Source of the DNA: Desulfocarbo indianensis | GTDB lineage: Bacteria > Desulfobacterota > Desulfarculia > Desulfarculales > Desulfarculaceae | DNA: 64,000 nucleotides | Reading direction: 5' to 3' | Assembly: GCA_001184205.1 (NCBI GenBank) | Contig: LBMP01000003.1 | Location: 434,001-498,000 of the forward strand | In this document: piece after piece, positions 11,248 through 42,372 of the stretch | How positions within the stretch are numbered: the stretch's first letter is position 1 | Layout: every line of letters starts with the position of its first letter | The notes under the pieces: generated by a model | Told to the model about the DNA's origin: nothing | Seen by the model: the letters and a program-made list of their open reading frames with translations, nothing else | Databases searched by the model: none | Made by a program: the position numbers and the translations under genes

Positions 11248-14118
11248 ATGATCGTGGCCGACCTGCACATACATTCGCGCTATTCCAGGGCCACCGCCCG
11301 CGACCTGGACCCGGAGCATCTCTGGATCGCGGCCCAGCGTAAGGGCATCGACCTCCTGGGCAGCGGCGATTTCACCCATCCGGCCTGGTTCGCCGAGCTA
11401 TCGGAAAAATTGGTGGAAACCGGCGACGGCGCTTACGTCTTGCGGCCGGATTTGCAAGGCGCGCTGGCCGGCCAGGTGCCCGCCCCCTGCCGGCGCGAGG
11501 TGCGCTTTTTGCTCTCGGCCGAGATCAGCTCCATATATAAGCGCGGCGGCAAGACCCGAAAAGTGCACAGCCTGATCCTCATGCCCGATCTGGCCTCGGT
11601 GGCCCGCCTGAACCAACGCCTGGGCCGCCTGGGCAACATCGTGAGCGACGGGCGGCCCATCCTGGGCCTGGACGCCAAGGACCTCCTGGAGCTTTGCCTG
11701 GAGGTGGAGCCCTCGGTGATCTTCATCCCGGCCCACATCTGGACGCCCTGGTTCAGCCTTTTCGGCAGCAAGAGCGGCTTCGACGCCATTGAGGAGTGCT
11801 TCGGCGAGCTGACGCCCCATATCCACGCCCTGGAGACCGGGCTCTCCTCGGACCCGCCCATGAACTGGCGGCTTTCCGCCCTGGACCGCTTCACCCTGGT
11901 GAGCCATTCCGACGCCCACAGCCCGGCCAAGCTGGCCAGGGAGGCCGACCTGCTCACCTGCCCGCCCACCTATGCGGACTTGGCCGCCGCCCTGGCCGGC
12001 CCGGCCGAGGCGGGCTTTCACGGCACCCTGGAGTTTTTCCCGGACGAGGGCAAGTATCACTTGGACGGCCACCGCAAATGCGGGGTGCGGCTCACCCCGG
12101 CGGAGACCCGCGAACACGGCGGCCGCTGCCCGGTGTGCGGCAAGCCCCTCACCGTGGGCGTGCTGAACCGGGTGGAAGAGCTGGCCGACCGGCCGGAGGG
12201 AAGCAAACCCGCCCGGCTCCGCCATTTCGAATCCCTGATTCCCCTGCCGGAGCTGATCGGCGAGGTGATGCGCCAAGGGCCGGCCACCAAGGGCGTGAGC
12301 CAGGCGCTGGAGGCCCTGCTGGAGCGCCTGGGCCCGGAGCTGCACATTCTGCGGGAAGCGCCCCTAGAGGATTTGCAGTCGGTGGGCGGGCCCATCCTTG
12401 GCGAGGCGCTGCGCCGCATGCGCCAGGGCCAGGTCATCACCGAGGGCGGCTACGACGGCGAGTTCGGCAAGGTGCACTTGTTCAGCAACGAAGAGCACGC
12501 CGAGCTGAAGGGGCAGAAGGGCTTCTGGAAGCTCGCGCCCAAGGCCGGGGCGCGGAGCCGCGCCAAAGCCGGTCCGGCCGCCCGGCCCAAGGCAAGCCCG
12601 CCGGCGGCGCCGCTCTTAAGCGCCCTGGACCCGGCCAGGGAGGGCCTCAACCCGGAGCAGGCCCTTGCCGCTGATTACCGCGGCGGGCACTTGATCGTGC
12701 GGGCCGGCCCCGGCAGCGGCAAGACCAGGCTTCTGGTGCAGCGGGCCGTGGGACTTTTGCGGGAAGGCGCGGCCGCGGAGGAGATATTGCTCATCACCTT
12801 CACCCGCAAGGCGGCGGGTGAACTGGGCCAGCGCCTGGCCGAGGCCTGGCCCCAGGGCCGCCAGCCCCTGACCGCCACTTTCCACGCCCTGGGCCGCCGG
12901 ATTATTTCCCAGGCCAGGGAGGGGGCCAACGGGGGCGATATGGCCATCGTGGAGGATGAGAAACGCCAGGCCCTGTTGAAACGCATCGCCGCCCAGGCGG
13001 AATGGAAGCCCAGCGACCTGGAGCTGGCCATCAGCCGTCACAAGCAAACCCTGGATCAGGAGCCGCCCTCCGATCTGGCTCCCTGGCTGGCGCTGTATCA
13101 GGAGGCCCTGGCCGGTGAGGGGCTTTTGGATCTGGACGACCTGGTGCGGGAGGCCTGCCTGGCCTTGCGCTCCGACGCGGAATTGGCCCGCTCCTGGCGG
13201 GAGCGCTTCCGGCATGTGCTGGTGGATGAATACCAGGACGTGAACCAGGCCCAGGTGGAGCTTCTCAAGGCGCTCACCGGGCCCCGAACCCAGGTGGCGG
13301 CCATCGGCGACCCGGACCAGGCCATCTACGGCTTCCGGGGGGCTGACCGCTCGTTCTTCGCCAGGTTCGCCCGCGACTTTGCCGGCGCGGCCGAATTCGG
13401 CCTGCAACAAAACTACCGCAGCAATGGCCCCATCCTGGCCGCGGCCCAGGGGCTCTTGGAAGCCGACCCCGACCCCAGCCGCCGACCGCTGCTGCCCCTG
13501 CGGCCGGAGGGCCCCTTGCCCAGCCTGATCGCCCTGGCCTCGCCCGAGGCCGAGGCCCAATGGGTGGCCGCGCGCATCGCGGAGCTGATCGGCGGCATGG
13601 ATTCGCGGCAGGTGGAGGGCCGGGCCGGCGAAAACCCCGGCGAATACGCGCCCAGGGACATCGCGGTGCTTTACCGGCTGCACGCCCTGGCCCCGGCCCT
13701 GCAAAAGGCCCTGCAAAAAGCCGGGGTGCCGGTGCAGGTGGCTGGGCGGACGCCCTTGGAGGAAACCGATCCCCTGGACTTCAAAGCCCAGCGGGTGAGC
13801 CTTCTCACCATGCACGCGGCCAAGGGCCTGGAATGGCCGGTGGTGTTCGTGGTTGGCTTGGAGGAGGGGCTCCTGCCCTACCTGCCGCCGGGCAAGCCGC
13901 CCTCCCCGGCCTCGGAGGAGCGGCGGCTGTTGTTCGTGGCCCTGACCCGCGCCAGGGAGCGGCTCTATCTTTCCCGCGCGGCCCGGCGCAGCCTGTTCGG
14001 CGAAACCCGCCAGCCGGGGCCCTCGCCCTTTTTGACCCAGATACCGGAGGGCCTTCTGAAAATAGAAAAGCCCCGCGCCCGCCGCCCAAGGGCCAGCCAA
14101 CTGGGGCTTTTCAAATAG
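11248..14118 (+). CDS. EndoQ-like PHP nuclease fused to a UvrD/Rep-type helicase
   Basis: A 956-aa DNA-repair-type fusion. Residues 1 to about 420 match endonuclease Q (COG1379): ADLHIHSRYSRAT gives the PHP metal motif, LLGSGDFTHP, SAEISSIYK and VSHSDAHSP follow, and a zinc-binding C..CPVC region lies at about 276-297. Known EndoQ enzymes nick DNA 5' of deaminated bases and abasic sites. A Pro/Ala/Lys linker covers about 430-460. The rest is an SF1A helicase: AGPGSGKT (about 485-492), ITFTRKAA, VLVDEYQDV, GDPDQAIYGFRGA, QNYRSN, LLTMHAAKGLEWPVVF and LFVALTRARERLYL. The stretch between motifs IV and V is much shorter than in UvrD or PcrA, so the 2B subdomain is reduced or absent. A 3'-5' helicase acting beside a damage-specific nuclease is the likely role. 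Confidence 0.88.
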   Translation: MIVADLHIHSRYSRATARDLDPEHLWIAAQRKGIDLLGSGDFTHPAWFAELSEKLVETGDGAYVLRPDLQGALAGQVPAPCRREVRFLLSAEISSIYKRGGKTRKVHSLILMPDLASVARLNQRLGRLGNIVSDGRPILGLDAKDLLELCLEVEPSVIFIPAHIWTPWFSLFGSKSGFDAIEECFGELTPHIHALETGLSSDPPMNWRLSALDRFTLVSHSDAHSPAKLAREADLLTCPPTYADLAAALAGPAEAGFHGTLEFFPDEGKYHLDGHRKCGVRLTPAETREHGGRCPVCGKPLTVGVLNRVEELADRPEGSKPARLRHFESLIPLPELIGEVMRQGPATKGVSQALEALLERLGPELHILREAPLEDLQSVGGPILGEALRRMRQGQVITEGGYDGEFGKVHLFSNEEHAELKGQKGFWKLAPKAGARSRAKAGPAARPKASPPAAPLLSALDPAREGLNPEQALAADYRGGHLIVRAGPGSGKTRLLVQRAVGLLREGAAAEEILLITFTRKAAGELGQRLAEAWPQGRQPLTATFHALGRRIISQAREGANGGDMAIVEDEKRQALLKRIAAQAEWKPSDLELAISRHKQTLDQEPPSDLAPWLALYQEALAGEGLLDLDDLVREACLALRSDAELARSWRERFRHVLVDEYQDVNQAQVELLKALTGPRTQVAAIGDPDQAIYGFRGADRSFFARFARDFAGAAEFGLQQNYRSNGPILAAAQGLLEADPDPSRRPLLPLRPEGPLPSLIALASPEAEAQWVAARIAELIGGMDSRQVEGRAGENPGEYAPRDIAVLYRLHALAPALQKALQKAGVPVQVAGRTPLEETDPLDFKAQRVSLLTMHAAKGLEWPVVFVVGLEEGLLPYLPPGKPPSPASEERRLLFVALTRARERLYLSRAARRSLFGETRQPGPSPFLTQIPEGLLKIEKPRARRPRASQLGLFK

Positions 14119-15182: not shown

Positions 15183-17375
15183 ATGACGCCTTCCGAGTCA
15201 AAGCCATCCGCGCCCGCCGGCCCCTGGCGCAAGCCCGCCTGGGCCATGGCCTACGCCCTGGCCGCCCTGGCCCTGGCCGGGGCCCTGGTTTTGGCCTGGC
15301 GGCTGGAAAGCCATCGGCCCTGGCATGAGGAAGTGGCGGCCATAAACCAGCGCCGCGCCGCCCTGGCCCAGGAGCGTCTTTTGGCCGACGGCGTTAAGCC
15401 CGGCCCGGCCGCGGCCCAGGCGGCCAAGATCGCCGCCCAGCCGCCTACGGTCAAGGAGATCGTGCCCGCCTTTACCGGCAAGCCGGAGCGCTGTCTCACC
15501 TGCCACCAAGGCCTCGCCCGGATCAGCCCCTCCCATCCGGTGGAGGCGGTGGGCTGCGTGGTGTGCCACGGCGGCCAGGGCCTGGCCCTCACCAAGGACG
15601 AGGCCCACCGGGGCCTGTTAGGGCGCAACCCCTCGGATTTGGCCACGGCCAGGGCCTCCTGCGGCGGCGGCCCGGATTTGGCGGGACGCTGCCACGCCGG
15701 GCGCGAGGAACCGGCGGCCAACCTGGTGGAGCGGGTGGAGCGCAGCATCATGGCCACCATGACCGGCGTCATCACCAGCCTGCGGGTCACCTGGGGCGCG
15801 CAGCATGATTTCACGGCCCGCTACGCCACGGCGGCGGTCAGCGACCCCGGCCTGCCCCAGCCGCCGCCCGCCGGGGCCCTGCCCTCCCTCCTGGCCCTGC
15901 CCGGCGGACCGCCCCGCGGATTAACCATGCCGGGCCTGGCCGACGACCACTGGCGCAAGTTCTGCGCCCGCTGCCATTTGCGCGCCCAGCGGGAAGCCGG
16001 CCCCAGCGTACACGGCGCGGGCTGCGCCGCCTGCCACGGCTCCCGGGCCGAGGACGGCCGCTATCACGGGGGCGACGCCGCCCTAAACCGCTTTGAGCCG
16101 GGCCACGCCGCCCGCCATGAACTCATCGCCACCCCCAAGGAGGAGGCCTGCCGCCGCTGCCACAACCGCTCGGCCCGCATCGGCCTCAACTACCAGGGCT
16201 GGATGGAGGACGAATCCGGCCGGACGCCCTGGCGCGGGGCCAATCCCCTTTACACCCTCTCCGGCGGCCGGGGCGTGCGCCGCCTGCTGCCCGACGCGCA
16301 CGCGGAAAAAGGCCTCTCCTGCATAGACTGCCACACCGGCCGCGAGATCATGGGCGATCACCGCATCTATGGCCGCATGCGTTATCAAACCGAGATACGC
16401 TGCGCCACCTGCCACGGCGGGCCGGGCAAGCCGCCCGCCTTTGGCCCGGCCGACGGCGCGGCCCGCTATGAAGTGGCCTACGGCCCTTTGCGGAACGCGC
16501 CCAGGCTCACCTCGGAGAGCCAGGTGGGGCTTACCGCCAAGGGCCGCTCCCTGGCCGCCCTGCGGCCCGGCGAAAAAGGGGCTCTGCTCCACCTGCGTTC
16601 CCAGGCCGGTCCGCCACGGCTTTGCACCGACATAAGCCGCGACCCCAAGCACGCCCTGCCCGGCCACCAGCGTCTGGCCTGCCAGGCCTGCCACTCGCGC
16701 TGGACCCCGCAATGCTACGGTTGCCACGATTACCGCCTGCAAGGCGGCAAGCTGTGGGATTACGCGGCGGGTGAACCCACGCCGGGCGGCTGGCATGAGA
16801 CCAGGGACCTGTACCGTTTCTTGGAGCCGGTCCTGGCGGTGGATTCCAGGGGGCTCATCACCACCTTCGTGCCGGGCTGCCAGGTGGCTTTAAGCCTGGT
16901 GGACAAGCACGGAGCGCCCCAGCCGGGGCGCAGCCGGGATATCCTGCGCCAGGGTCCGGCCGGCAACGGCATCGTCATGACGCCCATCGCCGCCCACACC
17001 ACCCGCCGCGAGGTGCGGCCCTGCGAGGATTGCCACGCCAATCCCCGCGCCCTGGGCCTGGGCTGGGGTCCGCGCCCCCTGGGCAAGATGGCCTCCCGGC
17101 CCTTGAGCGATTTGAGCGCATTCGCCTGGCCCGTGGATTGGACCGCGCTGGTGGATGAACAGGGCCGCGCCTTGCAGGGCATGAACCATCAGGGAGCCCG
17201 GCCCCTTAGCAAGGCCGAGATCGCCAGGGCGCTGAGGTTCGCCCGCTGCCTGCCCTGCCACCGCAAGCCGGAAGACCCGGTGCTGAAGGACCCGGCCAGG
17301 GCCTACGCGCGCATCGCGCCGGGCGGCGATCTATACGCCAAGCACCAGGCCCAGGAAGCCAAGGCGCTCAAATGA
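15183..17375 (+). CDS. Membrane-anchored multiheme c-type cytochrome with a candidate CX9CH heme site
   Basis: A 730-aa periplasmic electron-transfer protein held by one uncleaved N-terminal helix (about residues 21-41). It contains eleven standard CxxCH heme sites (CLTCH, CVVCH, CARCH, CAACH, CRRCH, CIDCH, CATCH, CQACH, CYGCH, CEDCH, CLPCH). It also has one odd site, C160-x9-C170-H171. That site aligns with a normal CGGCH in the paralog encoded just downstream, in matching surroundings (CxxCH spacing before, a WGA block after), so it probably still binds heme. The stop overlaps the start of the next cytochrome (ATGA). Partners could be a quinol oxidoreductase or an extracellular electron path; the sequence does not say which. 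Confidence 0.88.
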   Translation: MTPSESKPSAPAGPWRKPAWAMAYALAALALAGALVLAWRLESHRPWHEEVAAINQRRAALAQERLLADGVKPGPAAAQAAKIAAQPPTVKEIVPAFTGKPERCLTCHQGLARISPSHPVEAVGCVVCHGGQGLALTKDEAHRGLLGRNPSDLATARASCGGGPDLAGRCHAGREEPAANLVERVERSIMATMTGVITSLRVTWGAQHDFTARYATAAVSDPGLPQPPPAGALPSLLALPGGPPRGLTMPGLADDHWRKFCARCHLRAQREAGPSVHGAGCAACHGSRAEDGRYHGGDAALNRFEPGHAARHELIATPKEEACRRCHNRSARIGLNYQGWMEDESGRTPWRGANPLYTLSGGRGVRRLLPDAHAEKGLSCIDCHTGREIMGDHRIYGRMRYQTEIRCATCHGGPGKPPAFGPADGAARYEVAYGPLRNAPRLTSESQVGLTAKGRSLAALRPGEKGALLHLRSQAGPPRLCTDISRDPKHALPGHQRLACQACHSRWTPQCYGCHDYRLQGGKLWDYAAGEPTPGGWHETRDLYRFLEPVLAVDSRGLITTFVPGCQVALSLVDKHGAPQPGRSRDILRQGPAGNGIVMTPIAAHTTRREVRPCEDCHANPRALGLGWGPRPLGKMASRPLSDLSAFAWPVDWTALVDEQGRALQGMNHQGARPLSKAEIARALRFARCLPCHRKPEDPVLKDPARAYARIAPGGDLYAKHQAQEAKALK

Positions 17376-19231
17376 AAAGGCTGGTCTTCCTCATATTGAT
17401 CGCCCTGGCCGTGCCCTGGCAGGCCTGGGCCGCCCAGCAGCCGGACGCTGGCTGCCTGGGCTGCCACGCCGAAATGGCCGCGCCCATGCCGCCGCCGGGC
17501 CGGGCCGCCGCCTCGGCCCATGACCTGGCCTGCACCCGATGCCATCTGGGCGACGGCCAGGCCCAGCAGGCCAAGGCCGCCCACGCTGGCCTGGCGGCCA
17601 ATCCCTCGGCCCTGGACCAGGCCCAGCGCGCCTGCGGCGGCTGCCACCCCGGCTGGCCGGCCAAGGTTCAGCTCTCGCCCATGGCCACCAACATGGGCCT
17701 GATCAACCAGACCCGCTATCTGTGGGGCGCATCCAATGATGCCTTGCCCCGCTTCGGCGTCAAATCCGCGCCAGGGCTACTGGCCCTGCCGGAGCCCGGC
17801 CAGACCGGCGAGCCGGTGGATGATTTCCTGCGCCGCCGCTGCCTGCGCTGCCATTTGTGGAACCCTGGGGTTGATTTGGCCGGCGCGCGGCGTTCGGCCG
17901 GCTGCGCGGCCTGCCACCGGCCCTATGCCGACGGCCGGCCGCCCAAGGGCCACGGCCTGACCAAGCGCATCCCGGTGAGCCAATGCCTTACCTGCCACGC
18001 CTCCTGCGGAGCCGGGCCGGAATACGCGGGCCGCGTCCCCCGCGACGATCACCAGTCGGCCCGCTTTGACGAGCCCGCCCCTGGCCGCCCCCTGCTCTGG
18101 CAGGGCCGCTCCTGGCGGGCCATGCGGCCCGACCTGCACTACCAGGCCGGCATGGCCTGCATCGATTGCCACCCCCGCGGCGAGATCATGGGCGATGGCA
18201 AGCTGCGCGCCGCAGGGCTTATCCACGTGGGCCTGCGCTGCGCCACCTGCCACGGCCGGCCCGGCGCGCCCCCCCAGGAGGCGGTCACGGCCCTTGGCGC
18301 GCGGCTGAATCATGTGCGCCGCGCCGAAAACGGTTTGGTGCTGACCGGCAAGCTGGACGACAAGGAGCGCCGGCCGCCGGCCCTGGCCAAGGACCCCCAA
18401 GCGCCGGTGGCGCATCAGATAGCGGAGCACGCCAGGGTGGCCTGCCATGCCTGCCACAGCGCCACCAACCCGGCTGATTGGGGCATGATGGTGCAGTTGG
18501 AGACCCGCCCCGCCTATCACGTCTGGCAGCCCCTGGCCGCCCAGGGCGATCCCCAGGTGCTGGAGCTGCTGAGCCGCCCCCCGCCCCGGCCGCCGGCCCT
18601 GGCCATGCCGCCCATGACCCGCGACTACCTGAGCGGCGAGGCCCGGCCCGGCCTGTGGATCATGTCGCCCTTTTTCCGGCGCTTCGCCTGGAAGGTTTTC
18701 GGCCAGGCCCCGGACGGGCGCGCCATGCTCTTGGCCCCCCGCTTTCAATACGCGATCACCCGCCTGGACGACGACGGGCGGCTGCTCTCCCCGGCGGCCA
18801 TACCCCGGCCCGGCCTGGGAGTCGCGCCCTGGCATGCCCACACCACCAGCCGCGCCACCCTGGGCTGCGCCGATTGCCACGGCAAGGCGCGGGCCCTGGG
18901 CCTGGGGCTCACCTTCCTGCGTGAAGGTCCGGAATCAGCTAAGCCGGATTCCCGGCCCCGGCTCGCGCCCAACCTCTGGCAACCCCGGGCCGAGGGCCTG
19001 GACGCGCCGGACTGGACCCAGGTCACCGACCTGGACGGCAGGCCCCGCCAGGCCTTCCTCATACCCGGCGCGAGGCCCTTTCCCCGCGAAACCCTGCGCC
19101 GCCTTTTGAGGCCGGGCAAGGATTATCAGCGCTGGCTGCTGAAGGCTCTGGAGCAGGAATGGCCCTGGCGCGGGCAAGCCGGAGCCGCGCCGGAGGCGAC
19201 CAAGGATTCGCCTGGCATTAAAAAGCCTTGA
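17372..19231 (+). CDS. Secreted decaheme c-type cytochrome, paralog of its upstream neighbour
   Basis: A 619-aa periplasmic protein with a cleavable signal peptide (about residues 1-20, ending AWA). It has ten CxxCH sites: CLGCH, CTRCH, CGGCH (88-92), CLRCH, CAACH, CLTCH, CIDCH, CATCH, CHACH and CADCH. Shared blocks with the upstream gene include ACIDCH-x2-GEIMGD and LRCATCHG, and the AHTT...CxDCH..ARALGLG end. The pair therefore arose by duplication. Translation is coupled through an ATGA overlap. The two probably form one electron-transfer unit, one tethered and one soluble. The gene converges on the DUF89 gene with only 13 bases between stops. Confidence 0.88.
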   Translation: MKRLVFLILIALAVPWQAWAAQQPDAGCLGCHAEMAAPMPPPGRAAASAHDLACTRCHLGDGQAQQAKAAHAGLAANPSALDQAQRACGGCHPGWPAKVQLSPMATNMGLINQTRYLWGASNDALPRFGVKSAPGLLALPEPGQTGEPVDDFLRRRCLRCHLWNPGVDLAGARRSAGCAACHRPYADGRPPKGHGLTKRIPVSQCLTCHASCGAGPEYAGRVPRDDHQSARFDEPAPGRPLLWQGRSWRAMRPDLHYQAGMACIDCHPRGEIMGDGKLRAAGLIHVGLRCATCHGRPGAPPQEAVTALGARLNHVRRAENGLVLTGKLDDKERRPPALAKDPQAPVAHQIAEHARVACHACHSATNPADWGMMVQLETRPAYHVWQPLAAQGDPQVLELLSRPPPRPPALAMPPMTRDYLSGEARPGLWIMSPFFRRFAWKVFGQAPDGRAMLLAPRFQYAITRLDDDGRLLSPAAIPRPGLGVAPWHAHTTSRATLGCADCHGKARALGLGLTFLREGPESAKPDSRPRLAPNLWQPRAEGLDAPDWTQVTDLDGRPRQAFLIPGARPFPRETLRRLLRPGKDYQRWLLKALEQEWPWRGQAGAAPEATKDSPGIKKP

Positions 19232-40131: not shown

Positions 40132-40770
40132 ATGCCTAGAACTTGCCTCATATGGGCCCTTGCCGCGTTTCTTGCCCTGGCGCTCGGCAACGATGCGCCG
40201 GCCAAGGAAGCCAGGAACGCCGCCACCATAAGCGCCTTGCAGGCCCAGGAGATGCTGAGCCAGGAAACCAAGCCCGCCTTCATGATAGACGTGCGCACCC
40301 GGGCCGAATATGAGCTTTTGGGCCATCCCCCCAAGGCTTACAACGTGCCCTGGCGCTTTGCCAGCAATGATTTTCAGGTGCAGGACGGCCCCTACCAGGG
40401 ACGCAAGGCCGAGCACACCGGGTATCAGCTCAGCGCCCAGCCCAACCCGGATTTCGTGGGCGTGGTGCAGTCCCTGTTCAAGCCCGAGGACCGGCTGGTG
40501 GTCATCTCCGCCAACGGCGATGACGGAGCCGAGGCGGCCGACGCCTTGAACGCGGCCGGCTTCAAATACGTCTACAACGTCCGGCACGGCTTCCTGGGGG
40601 ACGCGCTCTCCGCGCCGGATCAGGAAAAGCTGGCGGAAAAATACTCGCCCCACAACGGCCTGCGCGGCCGGGTCAACGGCTGGCTCTATTGGGGATTGCC
40701 GGTGAGCCACGCCATAGACCCGCGCTATGTGTACCCGCCGGACCTGAAGCGCATGCAGCTCTTGCGCTAA
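40132..40770 (+). CDS. Exported rhodanese-like protein without the catalytic Cys
   Basis: A 212-aa periplasmic protein with a signal peptide (LIWALAAFLALALGNDAPA|KE). The rhodanese fold is seen in ISALQAQEMLSQETKPAFMIDVRTRAEYELLGHPPKAYNVPW and the strand RLVVISANGDDGAEAADAL. In active rhodaneses this strand ends in a Cys-containing loop (for example VYCRSG); here it reads SANGDD with no Cys, so sulfur transfer is unlikely. Binding of a partner or ligand is more likely. It converges with the cytochrome b/Rieske genes (20 bases between stops), which may or may not be related. Confidence 0.8.
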   Translation: MPRTCLIWALAAFLALALGNDAPAKEARNAATISALQAQEMLSQETKPAFMIDVRTRAEYELLGHPPKAYNVPWRFASNDFQVQDGPYQGRKAEHTGYQLSAQPNPDFVGVVQSLFKPEDRLVVISANGDDGAEAADALNAAGFKYVYNVRHGFLGDALSAPDQEKLAEKYSPHNGLRGRVNGWLYWGLPVSHAIDPRYVYPPDLKRMQLLR

Positions 40771-40790: not shown

Positions 40791-41417
40791 CTAAAGATTG
40801 CCTAAGGGACGGCCATCGCGGCGGATGCGCCAGAAGTGATACATTGTTATGCTAAGTGTTATCACGGGCAGCCCCAGGCAGTGCAGCACGTAAAATCTGA
40901 GCAGCGAGGTCTCGCCCAGGGCCTCGCCTCCCAGAAGCAGCCGCTTCAACAGCCCGCCCAGCCAGGGAATCTCGCCGATGAGCCCGGCGGCCACCGTGGC
41001 CGCCGCCTTGGTGGGCTCGTCCCAGCGCAGCACGTAGCCGCTCAAATCCAGGGCCAGGGTCAGCGCCAAGAGCGCCAGCCCCACCAGCCAGTTCAGGCCC
41101 CTGGGCGGCAGATAGGCTCCGGTGGCCAGCACCCGCAGCATGTGCAGGATCAGGGCCGCCACCATGGCCTGTCCGGCCAGATAATGCAGCCTGCGGAAGA
41201 ACCAGGCAAAAGGCAGCGCGCCCGCCTCCTGGGCGAAAAAGGCGGCCGCGCCCTGGGGTGTGGGCACGTAGTGAAACATGAGGATGGCGCCGCTTAAGGC
41301 CAGCACCACGAACAAGAGAAAGGCGATGCCCCCCAGGCAAAAGGAGTAGCGCGGCCTTCCCCGTTCATAGGGCAGGCGCTGGGGGTGAATATGCTCCAGA
41401 AAACCCTGCCGCGCCAT
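40791..41417 (-). CDS. Cytochrome b N-terminal domain protein (cytochrome b6-like)
   Basis: A 208-aa membrane protein with four hydrophobic segments, the size of cytochrome b6. Two helices carry the heme-ligand His pairs: RRLHYLAGQAMVAALILHML and RFYVLHCLGLPVITLSITMYHFW. The Gly-containing FCLGGIAFLLFVVLALSGAIL helix and the LDLSGYVLRWDE loop (quinone-site side) are family hallmarks. Its ATG overlaps the Rieske stop (TGATG). With the Rieske protein and the subunit-IV-like protein encoded divergently it should form a quinol-oxidising bc-type complex. Confidence 0.9.
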   Translation of the reverse strand: MARQGFLEHIHPQRLPYERGRPRYSFCLGGIAFLLFVVLALSGAILMFHYVPTPQGAAAFFAQEAGALPFAWFFRRLHYLAGQAMVAALILHMLRVLATGAYLPPRGLNWLVGLALLALTLALDLSGYVLRWDEPTKAAATVAAGLIGEIPWLGGLLKRLLLGGEALGETSLLRFYVLHCLGLPVITLSITMYHFWRIRRDGRPLGNL

Positions 41418-41920
41418 CAGGCCTCCCCCGCCTTCAGGCGCGCCCCGGCCGGGGCCGGCCGCTGGGGATCGGCCAGGAGCCAGCCCCTGGCGTCGCGCTC
41501 CAGGGCGAGCTGGCCCAGGCCCTGTTGCGCCGGCCCCTTAAGCAGGGCACCGTCATAGGCAAAGGCCGAGCCGTGGCAGGGGCACAGGAAGCGGCCCTGG
41601 CCGGGGCTCCATTCCGGCCGGCAGCCCAGGTGGGGGCAGGTCAGGCCGAGGGCGAACAGGCCCGCCTGGTCGCGCAGGAGGGCCACCCCGCCTTGGGCCA
41701 GGACCTGGCCCGGCAGGGGCAGTTTTTGGGGATCAAAGGCCACCGGCCCGGCCGCGCCGGCGCTGGAGCCGGCGCCGATCAAACGCAGCGCCGCGCCCAG
41801 GGCCAAACCGGCGGCCGCCACCAGCCCGGCCCAGAGCAAAAGCCAAAAGCCCCGCAACAGGCCCCGCCGGGAAGGGCGGGCTTGGGCGGGGGCTGGGTTT
41901 TCTTGGCTGGCGTGTGGCAT
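41417..41920 (-). CDS. Rieske 2Fe-2S protein
   Basis: A 167-aa membrane-anchored iron-sulfur protein. A twin-arginine motif (SRRGLLRGFW) precedes one transmembrane helix. The Rieske motifs are CPHLGC and CPCHGSAF, 17 residues apart between first Cys and second block, giving two Cys and two His ligands plus the disulfide Cys pair. It moves electrons from quinol at the cytochrome b site to a c-type acceptor, which is not encoded here unless it is one of the multiheme cytochromes upstream. Overlaps the cytochrome b start by one base. Confidence 0.92.
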   Translation of the reverse strand: MPHASQENPAPAQARPSRRGLLRGFWLLLWAGLVAAAGLALGAALRLIGAGSSAGAAGPVAFDPQKLPLPGQVLAQGGVALLRDQAGLFALGLTCPHLGCRPEWSPGQGRFLCPCHGSAFAYDGALLKGPAQQGLGQLALERDARGWLLADPQRPAPAGARLKAGEA

Positions 41921-41985
41921 GGCTAAACTTACCCTGGGCCCGGCCCGCGCCGCAAGCCGGCTTGAATCGCGCCCCAGGCCCAGCT

Positions 41986-42372
41986 ATGATTCCAAGCATG
42001 AAGCCCGAGTTCATAAGCCGCGATCAGCTCCTGGCCGCCGAGGGCCTGGCCGCCATCCTGGCCCTGGCCCTCCTATGCCTGGCCGCCGCGCTCTATCCCC
42101 TGGAGCCGGTGGGGCAGGTCGCCTCCCAGGGGCGGGCGGACGCGCCCTGGCTGTTCTTGGGCCTGCAAGAGCTGCTGCGCCATTTGCCGGCCCTGTTGGC
42201 CGGGGTCCTCATCCCCTGCGCGGCGCTGGCCTTCACCGCGGCCCTGCCCTGGCTGGCCGGCGAAGGAAAGCAGGACCCACCCCACTGGCGGCGCGCCTGG
42301 CGTCCGGCCGAGTACGGGGCCTGGTTCATCACCGTCGCCTGGCTGGGCCTCACGGTCTATGCCGCGTTTTGA
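41986..42372 (+). CDS. Cytochrome b C-terminal (subunit IV-like) membrane protein, divergent from its partners
   Basis: A membrane protein of about 124-128 aa with three hydrophobic segments. The block DAPWLFLGLQELLRHLPALLAG corresponds to the PWYFLGLQE region of subunit IV/cytochrome b C-terminus at the quinol site, and ALYPLEPVGQVASQG precedes it as in PetD-type proteins. Start is uncertain: ATG at 41986 or 41998, neither with a strong ribosome binding site. It is encoded divergently from the Rieske/cytochrome b pair across about 65 bases, an unusual arrangement, since petB and petD are normally consecutive. Confidence 0.7.
   Translation: MIPSMKPEFISRDQLLAAEGLAAILALALLCLAAALYPLEPVGQVASQGRADAPWLFLGLQELLRHLPALLAGVLIPCAALAFTAALPWLAGEGKQDPPHWRRAWRPAEYGAWFITVAWLGLTVYAAF

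Follow-up and report, generated by a model that had tools for sequence, protein, structure and literature searches.

An ExtM-like multiheme cytochrome whose third putative heme site varies in the spacing of its cysteines

A pair of multiheme cytochrome genes in the genome of Desulfocarbo indianensis, here called ORFs A and B, raises the question of what it means for a c-type heme site when its two cysteines are separated by nine residues instead of two. The pair was analysed within a stretch of 64,000 nucleotides (hereafter, the window). A reading of the sequence without database searches had counted 11 and 10 normal CxxCH sites in the two paralogs and had set C160-x9-C170-H171 in ORF A against C88-GG-C91-H92 at the matching place in ORF B; both statements are borne out by the open reading frames (Table 1). 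The 7-residue insertion in ORF A relative to its paralog is real, and the histidine is kept. The normal motifs of ORF A are at residues 104, 125, 261, 281, 323, 380, 407, 500, 511, 614, and 689 (n = 11), and only two cysteines, C481 and C566, fall outside the heme motifs. C481 is not conserved. C566, in turn, is invariant in 50/50 A-type homologs covering that column and is not seen in B; it could serve as a ligand or redox residue. ORF A has a predicted N-terminal helix (residues 16-43) as membrane anchor, and a 4-base overlap (ATGA) joins the two frames. As to the immediate surroundings, a 956-aa ORF upstream (11248-14118) appears, by eye, to fuse a PHP-type phosphoesterase domain to a UvrD/Rep-type helicase, and a protein with an ARMT1-like damage-control phosphatase domain (PF01937; 19245-20213, minus strand) is encoded directly downstream of B on the opposite strand.

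Table 1. Features of the window discussed in the text (columns: feature, position, strand, details).
ORF A, ExtM-like c-type cytochrome, predicted dodecaheme	15183..17375	+	730 aa; 11 CxxCH + 1 CX9CH
Putative third heme site of ORF A, C160-GGGPDLAGR-C170-H171 (CX9CH)	15660..15695	+	residues 160-171, CGGGPDLAGRCH
M190 of ORF A, Met-or-His-only column, candidate axial heme ligand	15750..15752	+	19 residues past H171
C566 of ORF A, cysteine outside heme motifs	16878..16880	+	invariant in A family
ORF B, decaheme paralog, signal-like N-terminal segment	17372..19231	+	619 aa; 10 CxxCH
ORF B counterpart of the third site, C88-GG-C91-H92 (CX2CH)	17633..17647	+	
Cytochrome b (ExtP-like), probable partner	40791..41417	-	NF040969, 205 bits, under cut-off 290
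Rieske [2Fe-2S] protein, probable partner	41417..41920	-	
Cytochrome b C-terminal-like (subunit IV-like), probable partner	41986..42372	+	PF00032, 21.1 bits, cut-off 20.7

Whether the wide motif is a genuine heme site can be judged from its conservation. Genome search hits, related loci and fetched regions were combined into an alignment of 58 A-type sequences, 56 of which cover the third site. Cys, Cys and His are kept in 56/56, whereas the exact spacing of nine is found in only 16 of them; the remaining sequences have spacings of 2 (n = 17), 4 (n = 19), 6 (n = 3), or 8 (n = 1). The other 11 sites of A-type proteins always have spacing 2 where both cysteines are present, and so does the third site in 24/24 covering sequences of the B family. 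Thus, an expanded heme motif with its histidine retained is well supported, and, judging from this conservation, a heme is presumably attached at site 3 of ORF A. At least eight spacing changes are required on an IQ-TREE tree of the 56 rows, which has the small weakness of including the columns of site 3 itself, compared to a mean of 29 after shuffling, which implies that the spacing is inherited yet repeatedly altered. Among the sequences involved, the neighbour of ORF A on the tree (L011) has spacing 6, and another member of the same family (L012) has spacing 8. An origin of the motif by chance or frameshift is ruled out by its conservation in 56 homologs and by the in-frame length changes; a C-x3..15-CH pattern arises in 0.6% of shuffles of the non-motif residues of ORF A.

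The proteins belong to the wider ExtM superfamily. The NCBIfam model NF040943 (ExtM, selenite/tellurite reduction operon) matches A with 367 bits (E 1.3e-109, profile positions 17-585 of 599) and B with 153 bits; both scores remain below the equivalog cut-off of 800 bits, which places both outside ExtM proper, and the physiological role of A may therefore differ from that of ExtM. Nevertheless, the homology of A is near full-length, with 12 heme sites in register. Matches above the cut-off were obtained in 8 genomes of the phylum sample, and these genuine ExtM proteins (L034-L041) have 12 CxxCH, the third with spacing 2, which implies that A retains all twelve sites, one of them stretched (11 CxxCH + CX9CH). 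In Geobacter sulfurreducens, GSU2935 contains 12 CXXCH motifs and the neighbouring GSU2934 contains 10, and their conserved cluster, which also encodes a Rieske protein along with a cytochrome of the b type, has been called bc-complex-like (PMC2825233; PMC5877670). An ext selenite/tellurite cluster would include the ExtI porin, the ExtKL selenoprotein and more ext genes; a check for such a cluster, confined to the 64-kb window, found no multiheme ORFs other than A and B, and a rhodanese-like gene at 40132-40770. A second model of the ext set, NF040968 (FeS_ExtO, 416 positions), agrees almost fully with the ExtN cytochrome model in both its matches and its scores; as ExtO has been described as a 14 kDa Rieske protein (PMC5877670), NF040968 may be mislabelled.

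Probable redox partners are indicated by the gene neighbourhood. Genes for a cytochrome b C-terminal-like protein, a Rieske protein and a cytochrome b are found close to A-B in 13/13 loci that hold the full pair or most of one (L064-L076). The corresponding genes of the window (40791-42372) are located about 21 kb from A-B, beside the rhodanese-like gene, and since they adjoin A-B in relatives, the module is split in this genome. By analogy with these relatives, the distant genes presumably operate jointly with A-B. The association suggests that a quinol-oxidising Rieske/cytochrome b complex passes electrons to the multiheme cytochromes. A larger module is seen in two Nitrospirota loci (L074, L076), where genes for the Rieske protein, cytochrome b, the cytochrome b C-terminal-like protein, an 8-heme and a 1-heme cytochrome, A, B, and further 1-heme and 4-heme cytochromes form one run; site 3 has spacing 4 in both.

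The explanation that we favour, with a probability of roughly 0.7, is that A and B are electron carriers of the ExtM superfamily fed by the Rieske/cytochrome b module, that A is a dodecaheme protein with its third site on a drifting loop, and that it is matured by the System II synthase CcsB/CcsA. A and B would be membrane-anchored or periplasmic multiheme cytochromes that replace cytochrome c1/f, accept electrons from the quinol-oxidising module, and relay them along a chain of hemes to acceptors in the periplasm or outside the cell; this electron-transfer role and the direction of flow are what we infer from homology and gene context. A would hold twelve c-hemes, the third of them bound by C160, C170 and H171, and attached by CcsB/CcsA like the others. 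The loop between the cysteines, probably at the surface, has drifted in length among lineages (2, 4, 6, 8, 9), while the heme and its histidine ligand would have stayed.

A different answer had been proposed by the sequence-only reading, namely that the stretched motif marks a special, perhaps catalytic, heme. Such a specialised site, catalytic or acceptor-trapping, might use the loop as a pocket, as reported for OmcZ and supposed for MccA/SirA. The expansion is indeed confined to one site of twelve, and variants of the motif are said to be usual in enzymatic multiheme cytochromes (PMC4429474). Moreover, the cysteines of OmcZ heme 1 flank a loop of 14 residues (PMC9473688), the deletion of which reportedly suppresses the reduction of soluble acceptors (PMC11208441). 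However, at this heme, genuine ExtM and all B proteins have a CX2CH motif, and the loop is conserved neither in sequence nor in length: the inserted residues are variable, rich in Gly (38%) and Ala (17%), and contain no His or Cys. In an AlphaFold2 model of A (mean pLDDT 86.4, pTM 0.83), pLDDT drops to 71 in the block 161-170, compared to 87 and 88 in the flanking blocks, as expected for a loose loop, and a position at the protein surface seems plausible. The column of M190, close to the site, suggests an ordinary axial ligand, as it is occupied by 50 Met and 6 His among A-type sequences and by 18 Met and 6 His among those of B type; the column of M390 shows a similar pattern (48 Met, 10 His), and such Met/His exchange would be the behaviour of an axial heme ligand. 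A vacant catalytic heme had also been considered by counting histidines, since the close group conserves 11 His outside the motifs; with the M190 and M390 columns, however, the candidate ligands number more than 12. Together, they suffice for twelve six-coordinate hemes, and no vacant site is indicated. As, in addition, site 3 precedes the NrfA-like core, a specialised heme at this position appears unlikely.

The machinery of heme attachment bears on the two other readings. The CX15CH motifs of MccA and SirA need dedicated lyases (PMC7096707; PMC6976685), and a comparable enzyme, like CcsA1 or SirEFG, could mature the CX9CH site. The window's genome contains three loci with PF01578 genes. In one, a CcsA adjoins ResB (System II); the second is a HemX next to hemA, and the third, on contig C111, is a divergent CcsA/ResB-like pair. 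CcmF was not found in this genome, and no lyase gene adjoins A-B. The divergent pair (G000:C111:646403-647688; L003, L100) is the one candidate for a dedicated lyase, and was rejected, as most genomes with the nine-residue spacing lack it: a close copy of its CcsA (at least 70% identity) occurs in only three of 33 genomes (G000, G003, G019). The pair adjoins frames that, by eye, resemble a chelatase of the CobN type and a binding protein. In nine genomes with the nine-residue spacing (G004, G008, G010, G012, G014, G158, G359, G376, G429; mostly drafts, with G010 in one contig), two PF01578 genes each were found, one a CcsA and the other, flanked by hemA and a siroheme dehydrogenase-like gene, a HemX, and neither CcmF nor a second CcsA lyase was detected. 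The search for a special lyase that the sequence-only reading had suggested thus failed to find a CcsA/CcmF-type enzyme conserved with the motif, which makes an MccA-like lyase for CX9CH unlikely, and the reading built on it is the most improbable of those considered here. The general synthase, in contrast, probably attaches the heme at site 3. CXXCH is the motif for which this synthase is mainly known, and, given that no extra lyase was found in the nine genomes, the heme might instead be held by a single thioether bond at C170 or bound non-covalently, with C160 as a structural residue. However, C160 is kept in every homolog across the spacing changes, the protein has only C481 and C566 as further non-motif cysteines, and, in OmcZ, a heme is held despite a wide cysteine spacing; an incomplete attachment therefore seems doubtful, if not quite as remote as a dedicated lyase. 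The favoured reading, with complete attachment by CcsB/CcsA, leads to a proposal to which we would give even odds: CcsBA might tolerate cysteines 2 to 9 residues apart, and the essential unit that it recognises might be the dipeptide of the second Cys and the His, not the CXXCH spacing, with the family as a natural length series.

Individual expanded heme motifs are already known, such as CX14CH in OmcZ and CX15CH in MccA. For a CX9CH heme motif, no relevant paper was found in the open-licence part of PMC, and a search of the open-licence literature with a few spellings returned no description of one homologous site that drifts through a series of lengths while the other sites are fixed. What the A family adds is such a graded series (2, 4, 6, 8, 9) at a single site, with eleven fixed neighbours and in genomes that apparently contain one heme synthase, so that the spacing tolerance of System II becomes testable through natural sequences. 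On the practical side, counting CxxCH motifs alone would undercount the hemes of the ExtM-like A family.

The comparison with known systems helps to place the protein. Like OmcZ of Geobacter, A would bind one heme via a lengthened inter-cysteine loop, but OmcZ is an 8-heme filament protein with a 14-residue loop, whereas A has 12 sites and a CX9CH motif and does not qualify as an OmcZ-type nanowire (octaheme, filament-forming, CX14CH); no sequence relationship was found either, as no OmcZ chain is among the profile matches of the A family. The likeness to the sulfite reductases MccA/SirA, first noted by the sequence-only reading for the CX15CH of MccA, holds at the level of one expanded CXnCH among normal sites and goes no further: these enzymes are octaheme proteins with seven CXXCH, one CX15CH and a dedicated lyase, whereas A, of the ExtM type, has 12 heme sites, and neither this number nor the single CcsA of the nine genomes agrees with MccA/SirA. 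No chain named MccA was among the profile matches of the A family up to E 1. The profile does match NrfA, with sites 5 to 8 colinear with four NrfA CxxCH (E about 0.002 for 4wjy and 1gu6, while over a whole chain 3ubr matches best, with E 1.3e-5). However, A has no CXXCK site, and its site 3 is located in an N-terminal extension beyond the matched region, which counts against this site being catalytic by descent. A fold comparison of the full model and of the N-terminal domain with the PDB gave no meaningful match; as secondary structure is scarce in multiheme cytochromes, this result is no sign of a novel fold. The closest counterpart is ExtM of Geobacter (GSU2935; NF040943), from which A differs by its CX9CH in place of the CX2CH at the third site of genuine ExtM, by its score of less than half the cut-off, and by a window that contains no further multiheme cytochrome gene; it shares with ExtM near full-length homology, the number (12) and order of the heme sites, an adjoining second multiheme cytochrome, and a cluster that includes a Rieske protein and a cytochrome b.
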